Virus record (IMG/VR): IMGVR_UViG_3300047202_000021
Coordinates: 1 to 43,713 of that record
Length of the DNA stretch: 43,713 nucleotides
Reading direction: 5' to 3' (one strand)
Origin: a virus
Shown here: piece after piece, positions 6,656 through 33,156 of the stretch
How positions within the stretch are numbered: position 1 is the stretch's first letter
Layout: the number at the start of each line of letters is the position of its first letter
Position numbers and translations under genes: made by a program
Notes under the pieces: generated by a model
Database searches by the model: none
What the model saw: only the letters and a program-made list of their open reading frames with translations
What the model was told of the DNA's origin: nothing

Positions 6656-7518
6656 TTAAGAAATCGTGTTGAGCTTGCCAAATCGCCGTCTGTTATTCGT
6701 CGTTTGGTTTCCTCTCCAGAGGATAAATGCCACCTTAACCATTTGGTTCGCAGGACGAATGAACTCAGTCGTCACAAAATCTACACGTGAGTGAACTACC
6801 AGATTCCAGTAGTTCGCATTGCACATATAGAGGACACCTGAATCAATGTACTGACTCCAAATGACAGGTACACCCTTGAAGGTTAAATTCGTGAATCCAG
6901 CAGCTCCAGTTGAGGTATTCATCAAACGCTCTAGAGGAAGCCTTGTCTGCTCATATTTGTTGTAGACAGTCCGAGTCGTGAGAATGTGAGTCGGAGTATC
7001 TGTCGTGGATGAGGATGATAAGACACCATAGAGGGTTTGCATATCCGTCAAACCCTGAGTGGCAAAAGCACCAGAGGTCGTATTCGTCGCCTGCCAGAAC
7101 GTATCCGTTCCGCCTGCGATTGTTCCGAGAGTTCCAGTTGCAACTAAGGTAGATAGAGGGATAAGGTTGTTGGCTCCAGCGACTGAAGTAACCAATGCCT
7201 GCCCCATCCTATCTTTTAGTGCCATTTCTGCCTGTTGCATGCGAATACCCGCTAGGTCGAGGAGCTTCTCATTATCCGAGTTGTTATCCATCTCATCATC
7301 AAAGGTGATTTGGATAGGCTCGTAAGCGTTCTGCCAGCGAAATTCGCAAAGCATGGTGTTGTCGCCTTGGGACGTATTTAAAGGGTCTTTCCCCAAGAAG
7401 AAACCGCCATCGGTCTGCTTTTTGTGTAACAAATGTTCTACGATACTGACGCCTCCGCCTATTGTGCGTTTGCGTCCGTTCTCGTTTAAGATTCGGAAAA
7501 CGGGGACATCATTATCAG
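6656..7518 (-). CDS. Major capsid protein, exon 2
   Basis: This exon carries residues 34-320 of the capsid protein. The sequence immediately 3' of the intron reads DNDVPVFRILNENGRKRTIG, then GGVSIVEHLLHKKQ. It joins exon 1 (ending KTLVDNI) to give the KTLVDNIS...GGxSIVE signature of a known podoviral/siphoviral capsid family with an HK97-like fold. The ATG at 7432 is an internal methionine, not the true start. The exon ends at 6656. Exon 1 plus exon 2 total 963 nt, giving 320 aa. Splice points are inferred from protein continuity and from the intron ending in G. Confidence 0.85.
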
Positions 7519-8161
7519 CTTGTTAATCTCCGAGTTTCCTCGGAGTGCCGGACTATATCATCCCTTTCGGGGGTTGCACATTAGTCTCTACGCACGCCAG
7601 AGGAATAGTTCCCTCAGCTTGGTTCGGGGTTACCTCGCTACAAAGCAGGGGCTTCTCCGAGTTCGCAACCTTGTCAGTAGTGCTACGTCCTTTACGATTA
7701 AGGTCGTGCATAAGGCTCTTTAAACTCATACGTTTTTCAATGAATGAGTTAGGAAGTCCATTACACCCAAACTGATTCTCTTTAATATCAAGAAATGTCT
7801 TTTGCATTTCAATAGCAACTTCAGCTTGACGCTTCTTTATAATCAGGTGATCTTTTACGATACCAAGAAGTTCAAAAGCATTTTGGCACGTAACTGACCA
7901 TGTGTAAGAGTCCTTCCAGTTTTTAAGACCCATTGACCTGTCTCGATGATTTACATGACCACAACCAATAACTGACATGATGTAATTCATCACATCCTTA
8001 TTGCAATTATGGATAGATACACGAACCTGAAATTGATAGCGTCCATTCTTTTTTTGGAAGCTAGTTATTCCTATACTTCCTTTACCGTCAATTAATCCTG
8101 CTATGTATCCAAGTTGTAAATCACTAAGTCGTATCATTACCGCTCCATAACCTTTCGGTCT
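7519..8161 (-). mobile_element. Group I intron in the major capsid gene
   Basis: About 643 nt interrupt the capsid gene after codon 33. Visible core elements on the minus strand are the P7 pair (GACTA at 7586-7582 with TAGTC at 7555-7551), a P8 hairpin between them (CCC/GGG with a GAAA loop), and a P9 hairpin (7-bp CTCCGAG/CTCGGAG with a GAAA loop, 7528-7545). The last intron base would be G at 7519. Exon 1 would end in T at 8162, which can pair with G in a P1 helix just downstream. Removing the segment restores an uninterrupted capsid reading frame, and exon 1 otherwise meets TAG at the splice site. Confidence 0.88.
7553..8137 (-). CDS. Intron-encoded LAGLIDADG homing endonuclease
   Basis: The 194-aa ORF begins MIRLSDLQLGYIAGLIDGKG at 8137 after a GGAG site. 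The motif GYIAGLIDGKGSIGI is a LAGLIDADG helix whose Asp is the expected metal ligand. One clear motif is visible, so the enzyme would work as a homodimer. A longer frame opens at 8227 but reads through exon 1 out of frame, so I use 8137. The 3' end overlaps the intron catalytic core (P7), an economical arrangement common in phage introns. It should cut intronless alleles of the capsid gene and drive intron spread. Confidence 0.85.
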   Translation of the reverse strand: MIRLSDLQLGYIAGLIDGKGSIGITSFQKKNGRYQFQVRVSIHNCNKDVMNYIMSVIGCGHVNHRDRSMGLKNWKDSYTWSVTCQNAFELLGIVKDHLIIKKRQAEVAIEMQKTFLDIKENQFGCNGLPNSFIEKRMSLKSLMHDLNRKGRSTTDKVANSEKPLLCSEVTPNQAEGTIPLACVETNVQPPKGMI

Positions 8162-8261
8162 AGATATTGTCAACCAACGTCTTCCGATAATTCGCAATCG
8201 TGGTAGTGAGAAGTAAATTCCCATCACCCGTCATGCTTGGAATAAATAGTTCGTTAGACAT
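8162..8261 (-). CDS. Major capsid protein, exon 1
   Basis: The exon starts with ATG at 8261 after GGGAG. It encodes 33 codons plus one base: MSNELFIPSMTGDGN, then LLLTTTIANYRKTLVDNI. Read without splicing, the next codon is TAG. Joined to C at 7518 the split codon becomes TCT (Ser) and the frame continues into DNDVPVFRIL. The scaffold gene is directly upstream, as usual for capsid genes. Confidence 0.85.
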
Positions 8262-9610: not shown

Positions 9611-9961
9611 CTACCTTTCTTCTTCTTGTTCATTTTTAAATCCTCCTACCAATGATTCCGCATCACTTATCCACTTGGGTTTACTTGAAACTCCAAGACT
9701 GTTTAGAGCCGTAACGAAACGGGAGCCTGGTTTCTCCTTGCGTCTGTCATACTCCCCTGCCTGTCTTATCATCTGGCGAGAATCAGGAGATAACTCATAG
9801 GGCTTAGACTTGGGTTCCTCGATTTGCTTATAAGGCTCAAGACTATGCTTCTTCAAATCCCCCAGGTAATCTTCCTTGGTATGATAGAACTTTTGCATGG
9901 AGCTATTCCAATGGGGTCGGAACATGGAGTGAGAGGCATGTTTCTTGACTATGACGTACAT
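9611..9961 (-). CDS. Hypothetical protein downstream of portal (116 aa)
   Basis: The protein starts at 9961, overlapping the last base of the portal stop (TAATG), so coupling to the portal gene is likely. It is charged, with a His-rich start (MYVIVKKHASHSMF) and helical Lys/Glu stretches. No family is recognised. Confidence 0.6.
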   Translation of the reverse strand: MYVIVKKHASHSMFRPHWNSSMQKFYHTKEDYLGDLKKHSLEPYKQIEEPKSKPYELSPDSRQMIRQAGEYDRRKEKPGSRFVTALNSLGVSSKPKWISDAESLVGGFKNEQEEER

Positions 9962-12030
9962 TAAGAGAGAGCTCCTATTGGCTTGATTCCAAATTGTTTC
10001 GTATCCACTATTTTCCCTTCTCCCGCTTCCTTCTTCATAATCTCATCCAAGAGAGCCTGATGGATTTGGATAAGTTGCTGTAACATTTGGCTAGCGGCGG
10101 TATCTCCAAGTTCCTGAATTACACCTAAGATACTTGTGTAAATCTCGATCCGTGCGACATGGTCTTGATTAGGAGCTGGAGGGGATGGTACTTGAGGGGA
10201 GCCAGCTAAGACCGCCTGAACATTTGATTCTGCCGCACGGATTTCTGAGACAGAGACAAAACCCTGGGACTCTTCGGGTTTAATGCGTCTGAATACATCG
10301 GGGTTGCGTATCTTGAGTCGCATGAGGACTTGTTCGATAAGGGGAGCGAGTCCAAAGGTGTAACCCTCTTGAGCCAACTTCTGCATAGTTTGAGGGGCTT
10401 GCATGGCTTGGAAGGCTAGGGCTAAGGCGGTGTTTAACTCCTTTAGCTCCTGTTCGGGATTCTCAGGAAGCATGGAGTAGACATCTATTTCAACATCAGT
10501 ATCAGCCTGAATTTCTTCCTTTGTGGGGTTACTAGACCATTGAATATCGAGGGAACCGATGATACGGACAGCTTCCTCTATTGTCATGAACTGCTTGTTG
10601 TACTGATTGAGTTTATGGATAGATGCCTTGAGGAAGTCTGACATAATGTCCTGGCGATAAGCGGGGCGGGCAGAACCCCCAGCCGCACGGAGTTGAACAG
10701 AGGTTGCGGATTCTTCTCCTGATTGCAAGAAACCACGCTTCAAGTCCGTGACACCGGATATGTCCTGCAACTTCTTCTGAATATACTGAGTCGATTGCCA
10801 GAGTTCCGTGGAGTTCCCGCCAGCGGCTGAAACCACAGCCATTTTGCCTTGAACACTTTCAGAGTCGTATAGGACTATCTTGTTCCTGCCATCTCTCATC
10901 TTCCCCTGGTCTTCCTCATTGGCAAGACCTTCCTTAGAAGCGGCAATCATGGAGAGGTTGGTCTGTTTGGCATTGGCGATTTGTTGGTTGGTGAGAATAT
11001 TACTCTGCTCCTCCAATGGAGCATAGGTTGAGAAATCATCAAGACCCAGCATGGAATCCTGTACCTCATTGAATTGGAGGATTTCAACGGGGAACCCCTC
11101 TGCTTTATAGGGCCACTTGGATACCCGAAGGGGCTTCTCTTGCTCATCGGTAAGGAGCCAAACTTTACCCTTCTCACCACCACGGGATTCTTTGGGCGAG
11201 GGGAGTTGAAATATCTCATAGACCGTCACAAAACGGGAACCATTGGAAGATTTGAACTTATCAGAAGTAAAGTCGGCTAGGACACGGTTAACGATAGGAG
11301 TAGTTTCAACAAAGTCAGTACCATTTTGTTTGAGCTCCCGTACCTTCTGTCCATAACCGACTTTTCCTTTTAGGACTTTCCTGTCAATGTCCAAAGTTTC
11401 ATCTTCTAAGATGTCTTGGAGAGGGATGTCAAAAGAGCGACCCACCCATCGGGCTTCATCAAGATTTGCGATGGTTACAGCTGGGTCGAAGACGAAACGT
11501 AGGGGTGAAATTCTCTTCACAAATAGAGATTGCTTACGGATAAAGATTGAGCGTTCATCTGTCATTCCAAACTCACCCTTGTACCCATGCCACATGACAC
11601 CGTAAGGGGAGGCTACGAGGGCGTCGAATAAGACACGCCTACCCTCTCTCTTGTACTTGATTTCAGACATGATGTAGTTGATGAGAGATTCTTGGGTCTT
11701 GGCGGATTTGGTCGAATCCATCTGTTGCTCAACCATTTCACCTGTGATGGGGTCACGGACTTTGACAATGAATGTCTTGTTGCGTGGCTTTAAGAAAGCA
11801 CGGGGGTTTCGGAAGAAAATGGAGGGAAGATTGTATTGGACGATAGGGTAATACTCATTGATTATTACATCATAGTTATCTACTATCTGGTCAGGAACAT
11901 AGAAGCCCGTGTACTTCTCAAGATTACGCTGAACGAGGGGTTTGAGTTCACACTCTATCAGTTTCTCCGACATCTTAACTTCCTCACGAATTTTGAGGAG
12001 GTCATCTTCTTTATATTTTAGGTCTGCCAT
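9961..12030 (-). CDS. Portal protein, P22-like
   Basis: The 689-aa product has the length and layout of P22-type podoviral portals: a helical N-terminus, a mixed clip/wing region, an aromatic FVFDPAVTIANLDEARW segment near residues 180-196, and the helical stem/wing signature ISGVTDLKRGFLQSG...SATSVQLRAAGG at about residues 424-452. A long coiled, Gln-rich C-terminal region follows from about 530. It forms the dodecameric DNA entry ring to which terminase and adaptor dock. It starts at 12030 after GGAGGG, directly beyond the terminator at 12049-12075. The adaptor and nozzle lie further along the same operon. Confidence 0.88.
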   Translation of the reverse strand: MADLKYKEDDLLKIREEVKMSEKLIECELKPLVQRNLEKYTGFYVPDQIVDNYDVIINEYYPIVQYNLPSIFFRNPRAFLKPRNKTFIVKVRDPITGEMVEQQMDSTKSAKTQESLINYIMSEIKYKREGRRVLFDALVASPYGVMWHGYKGEFGMTDERSIFIRKQSLFVKRISPLRFVFDPAVTIANLDEARWVGRSFDIPLQDILEDETLDIDRKVLKGKVGYGQKVRELKQNGTDFVETTPIVNRVLADFTSDKFKSSNGSRFVTVYEIFQLPSPKESRGGEKGKVWLLTDEQEKPLRVSKWPYKAEGFPVEILQFNEVQDSMLGLDDFSTYAPLEEQSNILTNQQIANAKQTNLSMIAASKEGLANEEDQGKMRDGRNKIVLYDSESVQGKMAVVSAAGGNSTELWQSTQYIQKKLQDISGVTDLKRGFLQSGEESATSVQLRAAGGSARPAYRQDIMSDFLKASIHKLNQYNKQFMTIEEAVRIIGSLDIQWSSNPTKEEIQADTDVEIDVYSMLPENPEQELKELNTALALAFQAMQAPQTMQKLAQEGYTFGLAPLIEQVLMRLKIRNPDVFRRIKPEESQGFVSVSEIRAAESNVQAVLAGSPQVPSPPAPNQDHVARIEIYTSILGVIQELGDTAASQMLQQLIQIHQALLDEIMKKEAGEGKIVDTKQFGIKPIGALS

Positions 12031-12598: not shown

Positions 12599-12756
12599 TT
12601 TGTGTTTAACCGAATGTAGAGGGGGATGAATTTGAACAGGAACCACCCGTCACAGGTGACCTGTTCTCGTATCACCCTAACCTCGCTTAAACCACTGGAC
12701 AATTTGACCAACTTATTGAAACTCATAACTCCATACCAACGCTTATACTGAAACAT
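12595..12756 (-). CDS. Hypothetical protein (53 aa)
   Basis: The ORF starts at 12756 with AAGGAGG seven bases upstream, a near-perfect ribosome site. It begins MFQYKRWYGVMSFNKLVKLS. It overlaps the 3' end of the gene upstream by 14 bases and ends in an ATGA overlap with the zinc-ribbon gene. It is rich in aromatic and basic residues and not recognised. The signals at both ends make it credible despite its size. Confidence 0.6.
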   Translation of the reverse strand: MFQYKRWYGVMSFNKLVKLSSGLSEVRVIREQVTCDGWFLFKFIPLYIRLNTK

Positions 12757-13399
12757 TTAGAGCCTCCTTTATTTTAGGATGGGGAAGATAGGTTGATGAG
12801 AGAGAGGAGTAGGATAGATTGAATCTACCTATTGACCTGGATATACCCTCCCATTGGAGATCAAAACCACGGGGGTCTGATGGGCCGTGGTCGGAAAATT
12901 CTTCCGAGCGGATTGTCCCCCCGTCTATTCCGAGAGTCCTAATCTCTTTAACTCCTAAATTAGCTAAGAGGTTCACAGCGGATTCGGCGGAGAAGAACTT
13001 GGCTTTGACCCAGGGGGAGTCACCTACTTGGAGGGGGTAGACCGTGGATAGGTTGTAGCAGAGGAGGCGGTCTTCCTCACTAAGTTTCCTCATGAATGGG
13101 TAGAGTTCGATTAGTTTCTCAACTGTAACTTCGGGGAATGGGCGACAGAAGAAGTGGGGGTAGTAGGGGACAACCAGATAGTCACAGTTCCTAAGAATAT
13201 CCTCCTGATACTTCTCCGCTATGTAGAAGTCGATGATTTGGCAGAGGTTCACACGAATCTTTGTTACGACCCTGTTGATTCCCAGGGTAGCATATTGGGT
13301 GAGGTCAAATTTGTTCCGCTCGGAGAAGGTCGGCCCCATGCCAAGGATTAGGTATGGGAGAGATTCCTTCTTGTAGGAGTGGAAGAAGTCTTTGAGCAT
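12743..13399 (-). CDS. Unknown Rossmann-like protein, possibly glycosyltransferase or DUF115-like
   Basis: The 218-aa protein has a nucleotide-binding-like strand and loop near residues 15-22 (YLILGMGPTFSE) and a second strand and Gly-rich turn near 153-163 (VKEIRTLGIDGG). This pair recalls DUF115/MptE-like and GT42-like sugar-transfer proteins, which have a GxGPS-type loop and a later GxDGG-type loop. It closes the sugar cassette and overlaps the HNH gene by one base (TAATG). Assignment is tentative and based on motif resemblance only. Confidence 0.45.
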   Translation of the reverse strand: MLKDFFHSYKKESLPYLILGMGPTFSERNKFDLTQYATLGINRVVTKIRVNLCQIIDFYIAEKYQEDILRNCDYLVVPYYPHFFCRPFPEVTVEKLIELYPFMRKLSEEDRLLCYNLSTVYPLQVGDSPWVKAKFFSAESAVNLLANLGVKEIRTLGIDGGTIRSEEFSDHGPSDPRGFDLQWEGISRSIGRFNLSYSSLSSTYLPHPKIKEALNVSV

Positions 13400-13992
13400 T
13401 AAGCGGTTCCTGCTATACAGTGTTCACAGGCGGTTCCAGAAATTATTTTAACTTTTCTCGCAATTTTACTACACATATCCAAAAAATATTGCTGTGGAAA
13501 TCTATTTTTCATCATGTTTATATGTTTATGAACAAATTGAACATTTTCCACTGTATATCCGATTCCAGAATCTATTCTATCTAAAGAAGCTGTGCACTGG
13601 TTTTTATTTGCACAAATCTTTAATTTAATTCCAGATAAAGCACATATTCCATCTTGGATTTCCCATAAATCTTGTAATTGCTCTATATTGAGTTGAAATG
13701 GTATATCTCTTATAATAGCTCCAGCCTCAATAATCCTAAAAAAATTCATAGGAATATCTTTATAACCACGCCAAGATGGATTTCCATTTCCAATAAATTT
13801 AATTTTAGTGCACTTACGACAACCCTTTGTTTTTAAAGATAATAAATTTCCAGTATCAACACTAGCAAATTCTCCACAATCACACCTACAATGAACTGAT
13901 GGATGCCTATCACTATTTAGATTTATAGAATTTACAACTGTCCATCTATTAAATTTTTGTCCAATTAAATAATCTCTATCTATTTTTTTCAT
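13399..13992 (-). CDS. HNH-type homing endonuclease 1, in the radical-SAM gene tail
   Basis: The 197-aa protein starts MKKIDRDYLIGQKFNRWTVV (ATGA overlap with the radical-SAM stop). The N-terminal part has zinc-knuckle Cys pairs (CRCDCGEF and GCRKC, about residues 37-64), typical of phage HNH proteins. The C-terminal half has CALSG, a SLDRIDSGIGYTVENVQFVH stretch (about residues 136-155) and a following helix with MKNRF. D-R-I-D-x-G-x-G-Y-x-x-x-N-V is the known HNH variant in which the catalytic segment supplies Asp and Asn. It ends GTACEHCIAGTA, which resembles the expected Cys-rich tail of the radical-SAM protein. Confidence 0.8.
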   Translation of the reverse strand: MKKIDRDYLIGQKFNRWTVVNSINLNSDRHPSVHCRCDCGEFASVDTGNLLSLKTKGCRKCTKIKFIGNGNPSWRGYKDIPMNFFRIIEAGAIIRDIPFQLNIEQLQDLWEIQDGICALSGIKLKICANKNQCTASLDRIDSGIGYTVENVQFVHKHINMMKNRFPQQYFLDMCSKIARKVKIISGTACEHCIAGTA

Positions 13993-14936
13993 CTTACACA
14001 ACTCCCGCAAGCAGTTTTATCTACATTTTTTGCTAAGTGAGCTTTTCTTAATTCTTGAAATTTAATTGAATTCCATCCAGTCATGAAATCAACATCATTC
14101 AAGTCAGCCATAATAAGTCCATCACTATCTATACCTTTTCCGAAACAACAAGCTGAAAGTTTTCCATCAACCATTATATGTCCTTCTGTAAAACAACTCC
14201 AACATGGTAGCGGTGGAACCATATTATCTAAACGACCTGGATTTCCCTGGCTAGGTTTCATTCCAGCATTATCACTAGCACCTCCCATTGAATATAACGG
14301 AAGAAAATAAAACTCATCCACAAAGGGTCTGATAAACTCATCAACAATCACCTTCATCTTCTCACCCTGATCTCCGTCAAAGGCGATTGAGGAGGCGTAG
14401 AGTCCGCAGTCATAGTTTCCTGTGTCCCGTACCTCACGGGCAAGTTTGAGGTTCTTAAAAACTGTAGGGTAGAGGTGTTCGGAAACATTGGCTATCTTAA
14501 CAAATTGGGATAAGTTGAAGAAGTTGACTGAGAACTTGAGACTGTTTAAACCCGCTTCCATGCAAGCTCTGACTTTTCTTGGAGTAGCGATGCTTCCATT
14601 GGTGGTGAGGAAGATGTAATCAATGCCTATGAGTCTTGCCTCTGCTATTGCCTGAGGAAGCCAGTCACAGGTGAATGGTTCGTTGATGTAGAAGAGTCCT
14701 ATCTCATTGATACCGGAGTTCTTGAACTCTCCGAGAAGTCTTGAGTAGAGTTTCCTGTCCATATCTTGTGAATCATTCTTGCGGATAGAGCGCACACAGA
14801 AGCTACACCTGTAGTTACAGCGAGAGTTGAGTTCTATCTTTACTGATTTGGGGGCGGGAAGAATCTCCCCACGGTAATATCCAGGGATACCCGTAACAGC
14901 ATCAATCCGCTTGCTTATCCGCCTCTCTGACAACAT
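13989..14936 (-). CDS. Radical-SAM enzyme with SPASM-like C-terminus
   Basis: The 315-aa product has the radical-SAM motif CNYRCSFC (CxxxCxxC, about residues 40-47) in a strand-loop reading VKIELNSRC. C-terminal Cys clusters (CWSC, ACCF and ACGSC) fit a SPASM or twitch domain holding auxiliary Fe-S. It should use S-adenosylmethionine to make a 5'-deoxyadenosyl radical. It lies directly after a DegT-type sugar aminotransferase, as DesII and BtrN do in amino-sugar pathways, so action on an amino sugar is plausible. ATG at 14936 is preferred; TTG at 14942 is closer to GGAG. The last 340 bases are AT-rich and may have been replaced during HNH insertion. Confidence 0.82.
   Translation of the reverse strand: MLSERRISKRIDAVTGIPGYYRGEILPAPKSVKIELNSRCNYRCSFCVRSIRKNDSQDMDRKLYSRLLGEFKNSGINEIGLFYINEPFTCDWLPQAIAEARLIGIDYIFLTTNGSIATPRKVRACMEAGLNSLKFSVNFFNLSQFVKIANVSEHLYPTVFKNLKLAREVRDTGNYDCGLYASSIAFDGDQGEKMKVIVDEFIRPFVDEFYFLPLYSMGGASDNAGMKPSQGNPGRLDNMVPPLPCWSCFTEGHIMVDGKLSACCFGKGIDSDGLIMADLNDVDFMTGWNSIKFQELRKAHLAKNVDKTACGSCVR
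13992..14330. other. AT-rich tract at the 3' end of the radical-SAM gene
   Basis: The final roughly 340 bases of the radical-SAM gene are visibly more AT-rich than the upstream part of the same gene and than its neighbours. The tract abuts HNH gene 1, which is also AT-rich. This is what co-conversion of flanking DNA during homing from a diverged relative would leave. The left boundary is approximate. Confidence 0.5.
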
Positions 14937-15888
14937 ATTCAAGGTTCTCCTTGGTTAGCTTAGTAGAACATGGAAGGACTATTGTATTGTCCCCTATAAA
15001 CCCAGGTCTTGTTTCAATGCCACTTTGTAAAAGGTTCGTCTTGACTTTCTCACAAGCAACCCCAGTAGTAAGGTGATAAGCATTAGCCCAATGGACTACG
15101 AAGCTGTGGGGGGTATCCTCCTGACGGATAAACTTGTCAGAGAGATTCTCATTGTAGAACTTGGTTGCCTCACGCTTCTTGTCAATGAACTCGTCTATGC
15201 GTTCAAGTTGGGCTAGACCCATGGCAGCCTGGAGATTGGTCATGCGATAGTTGAAGCCTAGCCCCCTGTGTTTATAAGGTTCTATCATGGCTTGGTTCTT
15301 GAGTAGGCGAACCATGTCTGCTATTGACTTGAAATTGGTGCAGACCATACCCCCCTCACCCGTGGTTATCATCTTTGCGGAGTGGAAGGAGAAAGTTGAG
15401 GCGATACCATGAGCTCCGCACTTCTTCCAGCGGTGGCGAGAGCCAAGGGATTGAGCGCAGTCCTCGATGAGCTTGAAAGGGGAACGATAGAGTTGTCCAC
15501 AGTCTATGGGATTACCATACAGATGAACCCCCACGACATAGTCTGTAGTTAGCCCCTTTAGCCTGATGTTCCAGGTATCGGAGTCCCCATCAATCTCATG
15601 AACATTGGGGGTGAGAAGGACTGCCATGTTCTTCGTGGCGATGAAGGTGTCTTTAGGAACTGTAACTGTCCTATTTTGCATCCCACAGGCAAGGTAGGCA
15701 AGTTGGAGAGCGGTTGTGCCAGAGGAACAGGTTACAGCGTAATCTACCCCGATATACTTGGCGAACTTTTCCTCAAACTTGTCTATAAAATCGCCCTTAG
15801 ACCCGACCCAACCCGAATCTAACGCCTTCTTAACGTACTCTTTTTCTAAATCTCCGATGTTTGGTTCGGAGAAAGGTATTCGCTCCAT
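14902..15888 (-). CDS. DegT/DnrJ/EryC1-family sugar aminotransferase
   Basis: The 328-aa protein has family landmarks in order: the PLP phosphate loop SSGTTALQ (about 55-62), LIEDCAQSLG with Asp143 contacting the PLP ring nitrogen, and SFHSAKMITTGEGGMV with Lys172 as the Schiff-base lysine. A substrate-side RGLGFNYRMTNLQAAMGLAQ follows near 215. It is slightly shorter than typical members (360-400 aa). The family moves an amino group from glutamate to a keto nucleotide sugar, as in perosamine or desosamine synthesis. It overlaps the GT4 gene upstream and the radical-SAM gene downstream, indicating one coupled pathway. Confidence 0.9.
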   Translation of the reverse strand: MERIPFSEPNIGDLEKEYVKKALDSGWVGSKGDFIDKFEEKFAKYIGVDYAVTCSSGTTALQLAYLACGMQNRTVTVPKDTFIATKNMAVLLTPNVHEIDGDSDTWNIRLKGLTTDYVVGVHLYGNPIDCGQLYRSPFKLIEDCAQSLGSRHRWKKCGAHGIASTFSFHSAKMITTGEGGMVCTNFKSIADMVRLLKNQAMIEPYKHRGLGFNYRMTNLQAAMGLAQLERIDEFIDKKREATKFYNENLSDKFIRQEDTPHSFVVHWANAYHLTTGVACEKVKTNLLQSGIETRPGFIGDNTIVLPCSTKLTKENLEYVVREADKQAD

Positions 15889-16733
15889 TGGACTCCATAG
15901 TTATGCCAGGTTAAGTGGGTTACCGTTTGAAAGACATCAACAAATGGGAACTTCTTCTTGTGATCGAATTCATAAGCCCGTTCTATAAGCCCGACTACAT
16001 ACTCAGGTTTAGAATCCAAGGGAAAGATGTACCCGTTGAAGCCGTGGACTATGTAGTCACGTGCGTTACCCGTATCGGAGACTACGGGGATTAGGTTGGA
16101 GTGCATGGATTCAATGAGAGAGTTGGGGCCTCCACCCTCTAACTTAGAGCAGGACAAGTAGACACTACATCTATCATGGACTTCGGGATAGGATAGATAG
16201 ACTCGCTCCAGAACTTCTGTATTACTTCCAAAACCATTCTTCCACCCTTCTCCCAGGAGAATGAATTTCCTGTTCGGGAGGAGCTTTGAGACAGCATGGA
16301 TCATACCTGGGTTCTTACGCTTATCAGGATAATTTGTTCCGCAGACCAGGATAGCCCCGTCTTCTTTTCTGTCATGCGGTCTGAAGATTTCGCTGTCTCC
16401 ACACTCAGGAATGTAGACAAGTTTGGATTCGTCTACCCCTTTTGATTTGAGGAGAAGTTTATTGAACTCGTTCTCGCAGATAATCCAGGCGCATTGGTTC
16501 AGAATTGAGGCATCAATAGGAACAGACTCATGGGTGAAGAAACAGACCACTCGGCGTCCTGGCATAACGATATGAGGTAGCAGACTATAATGAGTTACAA
16601 CATAGGTATCAGCTTGAGGGATAGGGCAAGGGAAGTAGATTATGTCGCCGCCACTCACCTGTTGGATTTCCCTGGCGATACGCTCAAGGATTGTTCCACT
16701 ATTCTGCTGTGCTACTACATAAACTATACTCAT
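15846..16733 (-). CDS. Glycosyltransferase, family 4 (GT-B)
   Basis: The 295-aa product is a compact GT-B enzyme. The C-terminal donor domain shows a strand and loop AILVCGTNYPDKRKNPGM (about 127-144) and the E-x7-E element KLEGGGPNSLIESMHSNLIP (about 197-216), followed by VVSDTGNARDYI, characteristic of family 4 retaining transferases. Its N-terminal acceptor domain is short. It overlaps the preceding gene by four bases (ATGA) and the aminotransferase gene by 43. It probably transfers a sugar, perhaps the one made by the aminotransferase and radical-SAM pair. Confidence 0.85.
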   Translation of the reverse strand: MSIVYVVAQQNSGTILERIAREIQQVSGGDIIYFPCPIPQADTYVVTHYSLLPHIVMPGRRVVCFFTHESVPIDASILNQCAWIICENEFNKLLLKSKGVDESKLVYIPECGDSEIFRPHDRKEDGAILVCGTNYPDKRKNPGMIHAVSKLLPNRKFILLGEGWKNGFGSNTEVLERVYLSYPEVHDRCSVYLSCSKLEGGGPNSLIESMHSNLIPVVSDTGNARDYIVHGFNGYIFPLDSKPEYVVGLIERAYEFDHKKKFPFVDVFQTVTHLTWHNYGVQWSEYLSPNQTSEI

Positions 16734-17722
16734 ATTAAGACTCCTTTGATGTAAGCGGTTAGTCTATCCTTCATCCTTGGGTCACGAAGCCAGTAAGCGT
16801 GACGATGATAATACCAGAATACGAACTTGTAAGCTATGCGCCTAAATTCTTCCTTGTATGAGTATAACGCAGTGCGAGCCTCATCAAGTCTCCTGATGTC
16901 AGCGTTGAATGTGGCTCTACTATAATCACAAGCACCGAAGGTGGCGACAGGTTTTCCATGTATAAGAGCCTCGAATCCGGTTCCAGAATTGATAACAAAC
17001 AAGCCACTGCTTCGTTTGATGAGTTCATGAATATTTCCTTTCACTTTGTGGACATATCGGCTTCCTGCAATGGCATCATCAATGGATTGGTGGAGGTCTA
17101 TATCACCCGTGTTGTGAGGGTGCATCTTGAAGCAGACATGATATTTGTTCTCGACAGCCCAGGCTTGGATTGAGTCGATGAAGTAGCGGACAGTAACTGG
17201 GCTATGCCACTTGATTGTGTAGTCACGGGGGATTTGGACAGGGACTAGGATAAAGTTGTCAGGGGTCTTGTCTGTAATCTCATCCTGTACGCACTTAGAA
17301 AGACCAGAGGCATGCAACTTATCCGACATCTCCTCGCAGAATTGAATGGAGTCTACCTCATCCTCATGGGGAAAGAATTGGATACAGTCTTTGATTCCGC
17401 TATGGTCTTCACCCCAACCAGTGGTGTCCACTGTATACAACTCTCTTAAATGCATATTCATCCAAAACAAGTCACCTTCTGGCTTATCTTTTTTAGTTTT
17501 ATGAACATAAATTTTTCTATCTACGCCTATAGGACTAACATCATCTGGTAAAAGAGGATTTTCTTTTTGAATTAATAGTTGATGGCCTAAATCTTTTAAA
17601 ATTTCAATAAATAAATTCTGAAATTCAATCCAATCTGGATTTCCTCGCTTCTGACCATTCGGTAATTTCGCTCCAGTTTTTGAATTAATATCATCAGAAA
17701 AACTTCTAAATAATATTCGCAA
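16730..17722 (-). CDS. KpsC/KpsS-like glycosyltransferase (capsule synthesis family)
   Basis: The C-terminal half shows features of the Capsule_synth family (beta-Kdo-type transferases): FILVPVQIPRDYTI (about 157-170), VCFKMHPHN (about 196-204) and SSGLFVINSGTGFEALIHGK (about 235-254). The last two match the KxHP and S-x-G-x-EAL..GkPV patterns. The start is TTG at 17722, inside the end of HNH gene 2, after AGGAG. The N-terminus MRILFRSFSDDI mirrors that of HNH gene 2. The first roughly 260 bases are AT-rich unlike the rest, suggesting replacement during endonuclease insertion. Confidence 0.75.
   Translation of the reverse strand: MRILFRSFSDDINSKTGAKLPNGQKRGNPDWIEFQNLFIEILKDLGHQLLIQKENPLLPDDVSPIGVDRKIYVHKTKKDKPEGDLFWMNMHLRELYTVDTTGWGEDHSGIKDCIQFFPHEDEVDSIQFCEEMSDKLHASGLSKCVQDEITDKTPDNFILVPVQIPRDYTIKWHSPVTVRYFIDSIQAWAVENKYHVCFKMHPHNTGDIDLHQSIDDAIAGSRYVHKVKGNIHELIKRSSGLFVINSGTGFEALIHGKPVATFGACDYSRATFNADIRRLDEARTALYSYKEEFRRIAYKFVFWYYHRHAYWLRDPRMKDRLTAYIKGVLI
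17460..17722. other. AT-rich tract at the 5' end of the KpsC/S-like gene
   Basis: About 260 bases at the start of the glycosyltransferase gene are markedly AT-rich compared with the remaining 730 bases. They directly adjoin AT-rich HNH gene 2. This fits a co-converted flank brought in with the endonuclease gene. The boundary near 17460 is by eye. Confidence 0.5.
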
Positions 17723-18224
17723 CTTTTTTTCTCCTATAATCTTTCATATAATTTCTGTGATATTCTCTAACCTTTTCTCCATTTAAAATTCTGTTTTTGA
17801 TAGAAAACTCTCTGCTTATTTTTCTTTTACAAATTAAACATTTTCTTGAACCATTGTTCTGAATTTTAGTGTTCTCATTCGTAAACTCATGACCATTAAC
17901 ACATGTTTTTTTTCTAAAATTTATTCCAGAAAATCCATTTCCGCGACGAAGATTTTCTGCCATAGAAACAGCTTCTAAATGAATTGGATTTACACATCTT
18001 CTATTCCGACACAAATGGTCAATTGTTAAACCATCTGGAATCTTCTTAACATTAATTTCATAAGATACTCTATGGGCATAACAGCATTTTCTTTTAATCA
18101 TAAAATGCCCATATCCATTTCTTTTGATTGCGCCTTTCCAAATCCAACATTTATCTGTTTTCTCAACCTTAGACCAGAATCTATCTTCAATCTTATCATT
18201 AAATGTTCTAAGAAATATCCTCAT
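17706..18224 (-). CDS. HNH homing endonuclease 2, fused to a captured gene start
   Basis: The 172-aa protein has a zinc-finger HNH layout: CWIWKGAIKRNGYGHFMI (about 27-44), AHRVSYEI, then the catalytic TIDHLCRNRRCVNPIHLEAV (about 67-86), where DHLCRNRxCxNPxHLE is the HNH_3 signature. C-terminal Cys pairs (CVNGH and CLICK) form a further knuckle. Its first 12 residues (MRIFLRTFNDKI) closely resemble the start of the glycosyltransferase just downstream (MRILFRSFSDDI). The ATG overlaps the upstream methyltransferase stop (ATGA). The ORF apparently took over the native glycosyltransferase start. Confidence 0.88.
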   Translation of the reverse strand: MRIFLRTFNDKIEDRFWSKVEKTDKCWIWKGAIKRNGYGHFMIKRKCCYAHRVSYEINVKKIPDGLTIDHLCRNRRCVNPIHLEAVSMAENLRRGNGFSGINFRKKTCVNGHEFTNENTKIQNNGSRKCLICKRKISREFSIKNRILNGEKVREYHRNYMKDYRRKKVANII

Positions 18225-18805
18225 AGTTTCCTACTTGCTACATACCATTGGTTATTGTAATCACTGGTGGTTCCCCCGAACGCAATCAACTCCTGATAGG
18301 GCTTGAGAAGTTCCGCAACAAACTCTTTCCCATATACAGTTCTCATGGAACCTTCTGAGCCGATGTTGGGAGGGAACAGGAACCAGGATGTCCATAGGAG
18401 TCCCCCCGGTTTCAATATCCTCCATATCTCACTCATGTAGTGAGTGGCAACTTTCTCAGAATCAAGATGGGTAAAGAGGGAGTGGCAGATTATTGAGTCC
18501 GCATGGGAATTGCCTGTGGACAGCACAACATCCTCTGGAAGAATCTTTCCACCCTTATTGTAGACAGAGTTAAACACATCGAGATATTTGAACACGAAGT
18601 TTTCCGGAAGCTGGAACTTTCCACAGGTGTCAATGCAAGCTCGCCTAACATCAAGTCCTAAATAGTTAATGTTCCTCCCATGACCATAGCACCAGAGGGC
18701 TTCAAAGCCCGTCCCACAACCCAGGTCTACTACATTGAATCCCTCTTGAAAGAATCCTAAGCTGTCGAGAAGCTCAGGTGTATCCTTATCTACCTCTTTA
18801 TGCAT
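18221..18805 (-). CDS. Class I SAM-dependent methyltransferase B
   Basis: The 194-aa enzyme has motif I NVVDLGCGTGFEALW (about 25-39), a post-I acidic strand YLGLDV, and later IWRILKPGGLLWTSWF, the typical motif III region of small-molecule methyltransferases. It overlaps the gene upstream by 16 bases and HNH gene 2 by four. The position in a glycan cassette suggests O- or N-methylation of a sugar, but the substrate cannot be read from the sequence. Confidence 0.82.
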   Translation of the reverse strand: MHKEVDKDTPELLDSLGFFQEGFNVVDLGCGTGFEALWCYGHGRNINYLGLDVRRACIDTCGKFQLPENFVFKYLDVFNSVYNKGGKILPEDVVLSTGNSHADSIICHSLFTHLDSEKVATHYMSEIWRILKPGGLLWTSWFLFPPNIGSEGSMRTVYGKEFVAELLKPYQELIAFGGTTSDYNNQWYVASRKL

Positions 18806-19386
18806 ATGAGTATCAGATATTGACCCTCTGACCCTTCTTTTATGGAAACATTACATCTATCAGGTTGGGAATAGACCTTCTTAATGGTCAACTCATTCTG
18901 AAAAAGCAGGTTATCCAACTCCCCTATTGTGAAGTGCTTGACATGTTCGGGATAAAGTTGCTTATCAAAGGGCATGAGTAAGTTGTTGGGGGTGGATAGG
19001 ATTAGGTTTCCATCGGCAGAAAGGGATTGAGAGAGTTTCATCAAGAGTTTGTTGGGGTTCTCAACATGCTCAATGGCTTCAAAGCAAGTGATAAGGTCGT
19101 AGAAACTTGGGATGAGGGATATATTCTCGAAGGACTCGCAGACATAGTTGATGCGTGGGTCATAGTAATTTGCCTTAGCAATTTCTATAGCCTCTCCTGA
19201 GCGGTCAAATGCGTCAATCCTTGAGGGTTCGGATGATAAGGACATGAGATAGGAGCCGTATCCTACTCCGCAACAAGCATCGAGGATGTTGTAGCCAGAC
19301 TCAATGAATCCAGAGGCGAACATGTAGCGGATTCGATGAGACAAGTTTATGGCTTGGAGAACCTTTCCCGTTTGACGCTCACTCAC
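18790..19386 (-). CDS. Class I SAM-dependent methyltransferase A
   Basis: The 198-aa product carries motif I NILDACCGVGYGSYL (about 34-48), the acidic IDAFDRSGEAIEIAKANY stretch, motif II DLITCFEAIEHVENP and motif III LSADGNLILSTPNN. This is the UbiE/Ubie-like 'methyltransferase 11' pattern. It begins within the end of the terminase gene (four-base overlap), so it is co-transcribed with packaging genes. A sugar or capping methylation role is inferred from the neighbours. Confidence 0.85.
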   Translation of the reverse strand: MSERQTGKVLQAINLSHRIRYMFASGFIESGYNILDACCGVGYGSYLMSLSSEPSRIDAFDRSGEAIEIAKANYYDPRINYVCESFENISLIPSFYDLITCFEAIEHVENPNKLLMKLSQSLSADGNLILSTPNNLLMPFDKQLYPEHVKHFTIGELDNLLFQNELTIKKVYSQPDRCNVSIKEGSEGQYLILICIKR

Positions 19387-32531: not shown

Positions 32532-32746
32532 GCGGCGACTTTAAGGTTGGAGAATACATAGAGTTCAAGAAGCCTATCGTAGCTATGCAGACTCTTGGTG
32601 GATTTTATAGGCGAAAAGAGAAGCTCTGGTATCCGCAGAGACTTATGGTGGCTACCCAAGAAGGTATCTACGAGATTATTCCCACAGACTTAACTGTTCC
32701 AATCCTGCCATCGAGAATAAGAAAGACCAAAAAGGAGAAGCGATGA
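32528..32746 (+). CDS. Early hypothetical beta protein (72 aa)
   Basis: The gene follows AAAAGGAG with a four-base overlap to the preceding ORF. The product reads MSGDFKVGEYIEFKKPIVAM with a YEIIPTDLTVPIL strand and a basic tail (RIRKTKKEKR). It overlaps HNH gene 3 by four bases. Not recognised. Confidence 0.6.
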   Translation: MSGDFKVGEYIEFKKPIVAMQTLGGFYRRKEKLWYPQRLMVATQEGIYEIIPTDLTVPILPSRIRKTKKEKR

Positions 32747-33156
32747 CCATCCCACCTGATTTAGTTGAGAGGGCCGACCACATTCTGAGAAAAGGTAGCT
32801 GTATTTTATGGCCTGGTTGTGGAAATGGTAGATATGGGCTTATAAATTTTAGTCGGTCTAGAAGATTTGTTGCTCACCGAATTATCTATAAAGGCGTTTT
32901 TGGTGAAATACCAAAAGGGTTGGTTGTAGACCACATTTGCCGAACAACAATGTGTGTGAATATAAGGCACTTGCGTCTTTTGACTAATAAAGAAAATATT
33001 TTGGTTGGAGAGGGTATTGCGGCCAAGAATAAAAGAAAGGTTGTTTGCAAGCGTGGGCACAAGTTTCAATTCAGAAAGAATGGTCAGAGAGAATGTGGCA
33101 TCTGTAAAAATATGTCATTAAGAAAATGTAGAGCCATAAGACAGGGGGATAAGTAG
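32743..33156 (+). CDS. HNH endonuclease 3
   Basis: The 137-aa protein has the HNH_3 layout: CILWPGCGNGRYGLINFSRS (about 20-39), VAHRIIYKGVFGEIP, then the catalytic VVDHICRTTMCVNIRHLRLL (about 61-80), where DHxCRxxxCxNxxHL is the zinc-tied core. C-terminal Cys residues (CKRGH and ECGIC) make a further knuckle. AT-rich relative to its neighbours. It is inserted in ATGA overlap with the gene before it, as a free-standing homing gene would be. Confidence 0.85.
   Translation: MTIPPDLVERADHILRKGSCILWPGCGNGRYGLINFSRSRRFVAHRIIYKGVFGEIPKGLVVDHICRTTMCVNIRHLRLLTNKENILVGEGIAAKNKRKVVCKRGHKFQFRKNGQRECGICKNMSLRKCRAIRQGDK

Follow-up and report, generated by a model that had tools for sequence, protein, structure and literature searches.

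A group I intron with a LAGLIDADG reading frame in the major capsid gene of an uncultivated phage

Group I introns in the capsid genes of phages are already known. In LittleE, a mycobacteriophage of cluster J, splicing of a capsid intron was shown by RT-PCR and protein sequencing, and a capsid intron has also been described in Tuc2009 (PMC3706429). Likewise, capsid group I introns are found in crAss-like Delta and Zeta phages (PMC7886860). Proteins of the LAGLIDADG family are less usual in phage introns (PMC3984707), although they have been reported in introns of the polymerase gene of Bastillevirinae (PMC11878797). In the T4 introns, the Shine-Dalgarno (SD) sequences of the endonuclease genes are hidden in hairpins (PMC2988022). 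The locus presented here adds another example of a capsid-gene group I intron, with an altered catalytic residue.

The window (the whole stretch of DNA analysed, 43,713 nucleotides of IMG/VR record IMGVR_UViG_3300047202_000021) carries on its minus strand a major capsid gene interrupted by 643 nt (Table 1). An SD-like GGGAG lies upstream of the exon 1 start codon, and the unspliced exon 1 frame reads KTLVDNI before meeting a TAG that straddles the splice site as T/AG. Once the insert is removed, the split codon T/CT reads as Ser, exon 2 continues as (S)DNDVPVFRIL through to its stop, and the two exons fuse into a single 320-aa protein. The longest ORF that simple calling recovers from exon 2 is 258 aa long and starts at TTG 7432. 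Standard annotation therefore cuts 62 residues off the capsid protein, and our analysis corrects this gene model.

Table 1. Coordinates of the split capsid gene, the intron, its predicted helices and its reading frame in the window.
Feature	Coordinates	Strand	Details
Exon 1, major capsid gene	8162-8261	minus	33 codons + 1 nt, MSNELF...KTLVDNI; ATG at 8261
Exon 2, major capsid gene	6656-7518	minus	286 codons beyond the split Ser codon, plus stop
Predicted spliced junction	8162/7518	minus	...AATATCT/CTGATAATG...
Group I intron, 643 nt	7519-8161	minus	after U8162, final base G7519; RF00028 match and junction score
P1	8144-8164	minus	exon U8164 C8163 U8162 + intron AGACC (8161-8157), GAAA loop, GGUU(A)UGGA (8152-8144)
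P2 hairpin	7723-7750	minus	AACUCAU...AUGAGUU
P2.1-like hairpin	7685-7707	minus	ACGACCUU...AAGGACGU; sequence inspection
P3	7572-7670	minus	GGUUGC 7670-7665 / GCAACC 7577-7572
P4	7624-7660	minus	UCGG 7660-7657 / CCGA 7627-7624; encloses P5
P5	7632-7652	minus	inside P4
P6	7600-7615	minus	GAGG/CCUC
P7 (guanosine-binding helix)	7551-7586	minus	GACUA 7586-7582 / UAGUC 7555-7551
P8	7571-7569 / 7564-7562	minus	CCC / GGG; bases read from sequence
P9 hairpin	7528-7545	minus	CUCCGAG-GAAA-CUCGGAG
Intron ORF, 194 aa	7553-8137	minus	ATG 8137; SD GGAG 8146-8143; stop UAG = P7 3' strand

Joined, the two exons gave a phrog_9953 (major head protein) match of 130.3 bits that covers profile positions 12-326 of 329; exon 2 alone scored 117.7 bits. 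This near-full-length match assigns the gene to the Mx8-type major capsid proteins, and the gene order, with a portal gene upstream at 9961-12030, fits the assignment. Between the terminase and portal genes, the phage carries a cassette (12743-19386, minus strand) with radical SAM/SPASM, DegT-type aminotransferase and glycosyltransferase genes and, by reading, methyltransferase-like genes, which is unusual for a 44-kb phage. It also encodes HNH_3 endonucleases at 17706-18224 (minus) and 32743-33156 (plus), and possibly a third HNH endonuclease at 13399-14010, which has no Pfam match.

The position of the junction is supported by homologues that have no insert. A search with the joined protein matched 11 phage records (E 5e-21 to 2e-5), and the six annotated matches that were aligned (Mx8, Mx9, BUCT555, ppBjS10J-1, 45A6 and MW202489) all have uninterrupted, similarly long capsid genes that continue across the junction, where DNVTKNN in the homologues faces DNISDND in the joined protein. 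All 31 aligned IMG/VR homologues carry S or T in the column of the split Ser, and the closest homologues found with exon 2 keep LLTTTLANYR..L.DN[VI] in a single frame. The most conserved peptide pattern, chosen by scan, spans the junction; it matched at least 600 stretches, with 560 confirmed relatives among the matches listed. When an HMM built from the 31 intronless homologues, with the window excluded, was applied to the 1343 in-frame junctions lying within 60 nt of both ends, the predicted junction obtained the top score. Furthermore, exon 1 added 19.5 bits to the score of exon 2 alone, a gain reached by none of 500 shuffles (best shuffle, 7.4 bits). The joined exons thus form a continuous conserved protein, as expected for a group I intron. 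The split of the capsid gene exceeds chance and is confirmed, and the 643-nt insert is a real, well-supported further example of the capsid group I introns. A nucleotide search of the phage collection turned up no near relative, and neither did scanning IMG/VR with single proteins (capsid, portal and endonuclease), so that no two close relatives were found of which one has the insert and the other lacks it.

The insert also has the RNA anatomy of a group I intron. The Rfam model RF00028 matched end to end at 7528-7752 (minus) with 33.5 bits, corresponding to an E value of 1.3e-6 in a local search of 901 bases against all Rfam and of 1.5e-8 when the whole record was searched with RF00028 only. 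The covariance search proposed by the first-pass annotation therefore returned the family, although the score lies under the curated gathering score of 50, and whole-window scans with all Rfam families (at gathering score and at E 0.5) did not list the intron. The conserved core P3-P9 is nevertheless present, and none of 200 dinucleotide shuffles folds as well as its 234 nt (z -3.3). The minimum-energy fold pairs U8162 with G8146 at the splice site, so that the U ending exon 1 faces a P1 G and the intron ends in G, as in group I introns; P1 includes only three exon pairs, and the fold energy of its region is ordinary (z -0.6). By inspection, P10 (between the internal guide sequence and exon 2) amounts to at most a weak four-pair UGAU/GUUA, and neither P7.1 nor P7.2 was found, so the intron is not a typical IA member. 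In a sibling intron (L161/L178), P3, P4, P8 and P9 differ in their bases but keep their pairing (P3 is CUUCC/GGAAG there), an apparent covariation between two sequences.

All in all, the first-pass annotation, which had read a group I intron with a LAGLIDADG ORF into this capsid gene, described it accurately: the exon and intron boundaries were exact, the interrupted and resumed capsid frame, helices P7, P8 and P9, the final G, the overlap of the ORF with the catalytic core and the truncated 258-aa call were all recovered, and the alignment with intronless capsid proteins bore out the joined product. To its helices we add P1, P2, P2.1 and P3-P6.

The intron ORF matched Pfam LAGLIDADG_1 (PF00961) with 30.6 bits (cut-off 23.1) and phrog_5046 with an E value of 1.7e-25. 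PHROGs names the latter 'HNH endonuclease', whereas Pfam and the fold search indicate LAGLIDADG. The AlphaFold model (pLDDT 84) is mostly of high confidence over residues 1-150, and its low-confidence tail (151-194) is the portion encoded across the catalytic core. Foldseek retrieved I-CreI, I-CvuI and I-MsoI (E about 1e-9 to 1e-8), and the protein combines a LAGLIDADG motif with the alpha-beta fold of the I-CreI-like, single-motif type. On the other hand, its motif reads AGLIDGKGSI, and the metal-binding acid (D/E) expected at the motif end is replaced by Lys19. Glu occupies this catalytic position in 34 of 34 viral relatives (alignment of 35) and in six of six relatives from phage records. 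The I-CreI counterpart of Lys19 is Asp20, and there is a structure of an I-CreI D20N complex (1t9i).

In coral introns, loss of the acid at the matching motif position has been read as loss of catalysis (PMC5344465). We place the intron ORF in the LAGLIDADG fold family without filing it as an active endonuclease. Judging from the motif, Lys in place of Glu, DNA cleavage has probably been lost, although the codon (AAA versus GAA) may also reflect a base error. Since Lys replaces the catalytic acid, mobility of the intron by its own enzyme is doubtful. The name 'endonuclease' that the first-pass annotation gave to the protein thus holds for family and fold but probably not for activity.

Considering these results, we are confident that the intron folds and self-splices in the capsid transcript, restoring the 320-aa protein, and that it originated by LAGLIDADG-borne homing, its endonuclease now being probably dead or dying. 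The anatomy and the junction can be seen in the sequence, whereas the two transesterifications follow from what is known of the family. The intron would fold P1-P9, bind guanosine in P7 and be cut after U8162 at the U.G pair of P1; U8162 would then be ligated to C7518, freeing the intron at G7519 and yielding the complete major capsid protein. The LAGLIDADG protein would bring, or would once have brought, the intron to this site by homing, and the enzyme encoded by the present copy is probably dead or dying as an endonuclease, if it has not been retained as a splicing helper.

This last proviso, a cleavage-dead protein kept as a maturase, refines the explanation just given and does not exclude it; we consider it unlikely. 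The ORF is intact, its fold is predicted with high confidence, and a catalytic acid has become Lys. Moreover, a LAGLIDADG maturase is known from an intron in the 23S gene of Thermotoga (PMC3984707), and there are monofunctional maturases that a change of one residue separates from nuclease activity (PMC3943268). However, a recent change of E to K, which needs one base (GAA to AAA), in an ORF that has not yet decayed would explain the data equally well. The Lys in the catalytic motif opens to experiment that stage of the homing cycle at which an endonuclease decays or serves as a maturase.

The arrangement of the ORF also bears on how splicing and translation would coexist. Its SD belongs to the guide strand of P1, which base-pairs at the 5' splice site, and its frame crosses P3-P8 before reaching its stop in P7. 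Ribosomes translating the ORF would be expected to keep P1 from forming and to open up the core, and P1, once folded, would conceal the SD. Therefore, translation of the ORF and splicing should compete, and translating the ORF should exclude splicing of that RNA molecule. Capsid ribosomes, for their part, would be kept out of the core, since the exon 1 frame ends at the splice site.

That the intron is instead a relic unable to splice, the contig belonging to a defective phage or a prophage with a broken capsid gene, appears very improbable to us. The Rfam score under threshold, the A.C mismatch in P4, the weak P10 and the Lys of the endonuclease motif would agree with decay. However, both exons are open and free of stops, every core helix pairs, the junction is exact and best scoring, and a dead intron in an essential gene would not persist in a virulent phage. 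We find even less credible a reading with no splicing at all, in which the capsid gene contains a free-standing endonuclease gene and yields a shorter protein that starts at TTG 7432. Automatic ORF calling does produce this start, but it has no clear SD, the protein would lose the conserved N-terminal arm together with a GG motif shared without exception by the aligned homologues, and both the exon 1 match and the group I core would be left unexplained. Finally, although the evidence comes from a single uncultivated contig, we give practically no weight to an assembly chimaera or another form of recoding, and rejected them: an intein is opposed by the in-frame stop at the boundary and the absence of an intein domain, translational bypass by the 643 nt, far beyond known bypass lengths, and a chimaera by the group I core, which, with the U before the intron and the G at its end, it would not have set exactly at the homologous junction. 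Self-splicing of a group I intron remains our explanation.

We also examined how relatives of the intron and of its host gene are distributed. Among the best 80 relatives of the endonuclease gene in IMG/VR (loci L096-L175), 28 have a P7/P7' signature no more than 1 kb away (8 in sense and 20 in antisense orientation); in 2.7 Mb of control loci the signature occurs once, at L311. An N4gp56-type capsid motif, recognised by its motif rather than by a profile, occurs in 14 of these 28. Profiles support capsid genes of phrog_1357 at six loci (L100, L125, L132, L137, L144 and L146), and of SU10_MCP, phrog_14242 and Phage_capsid_4 (Mu gpT) at L110, L149 and L161, respectively. At least 18 of the 28 loci have capsid-gene signatures. 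At L110, the LAGLIDADG ORF and its core are flanked by two segments which, read together, make up one capsid N-terminus. Separately, the 3' end of the Mu-like capsid gene at L161 (700-2000) has group I introns in tandem, which carry LAGLIDADG ORFs and have a very short exon-like stretch between them.

These relatives look like an intron family of phage capsid genes that is widespread but has gone unannotated, and capsid genes appear to be a favoured home for group I introns of this kind. Given such recurrence, annotation of viral metagenomes will often get capsid genes wrong. The first-pass annotation had regarded an essential late gene dependent on splicing as notable; it is less so than claimed, in view of the published phage capsid introns (PMC3706429, PMC7886860) and of the endonuclease relatives at several unrelated IMG/VR capsid genes. 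One may go further and imagine a LAGLIDADG group I intron lineage specialised for capsid genes of unrelated families, in which the copy at the present locus is no longer a nuclease, splicing is served by the protein or by the act of translating it, and the P1 guide strand acts as a ribosome-binding-site switch between capsid and intron protein; we regard this as speculative and rather improbable.

Within the capsid family of the window, nearly all sampled members are intronless. RF00028 was found in none of 117 viral records carrying the family, a sample biased against split genes, as these score lower and the best 80 were retained. Of the 144 loci found with exon 2, all but one, which lies at a contig edge, have an ORF that crosses the junction without a stop. 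This check alone is insufficient against introns, since it missed L311, where the frame stays open through the end of the intron. L311 (1922-3789) holds a second group I intron of the family, at a different site (46.7 bits), on a contig filed under an Omnitrophota MAG, and has an HNH-like ORF on the opposite strand (2140-2832).

Compared with these systems, the intron of the window resembles that of L311 in interrupting a homologue of the same capsid gene, but the insertion in L311 lies about 40 codons further on and its HNH-like gene is antisense. The IMG/VR relatives (L161/L178, the SU10-type L110 and L149) share the LAGLIDADG family, a downstream core overlapped by the ORF and the location at capsid genes, yet they have an intact Glu, about 25-30% protein identity, and unrelated capsid families and sites. 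The crAss-like Delta and Zeta introns likewise lie in major capsid genes of uncultivated phages and were annotated from intron endonuclease domains; they belong to another phage order and capsid family, with up to several introns per gene. In T4 td, nrdB and nrdD, an endonuclease ORF also lies within the intron, with its ribosome-binding site hidden by RNA structure, as we infer for the window. However, the T4 enzymes are of the GIY-YIG or HNH type and a dedicated hairpin hides the site, whereas in the window the P1 guide strand itself would do so. In LittleE, too, the major capsid gene contains a probable group I intron that carries a homing endonuclease gene, with exon 1 ending in U and the intron in G; this intron is 819 bp long, its endonuclease gene is of the HNH type and lies on the opposite strand, and it interrupts a different capsid gene, whereas that of the window carries a sense-strand LAGLIDADG ORF that overlaps the core.
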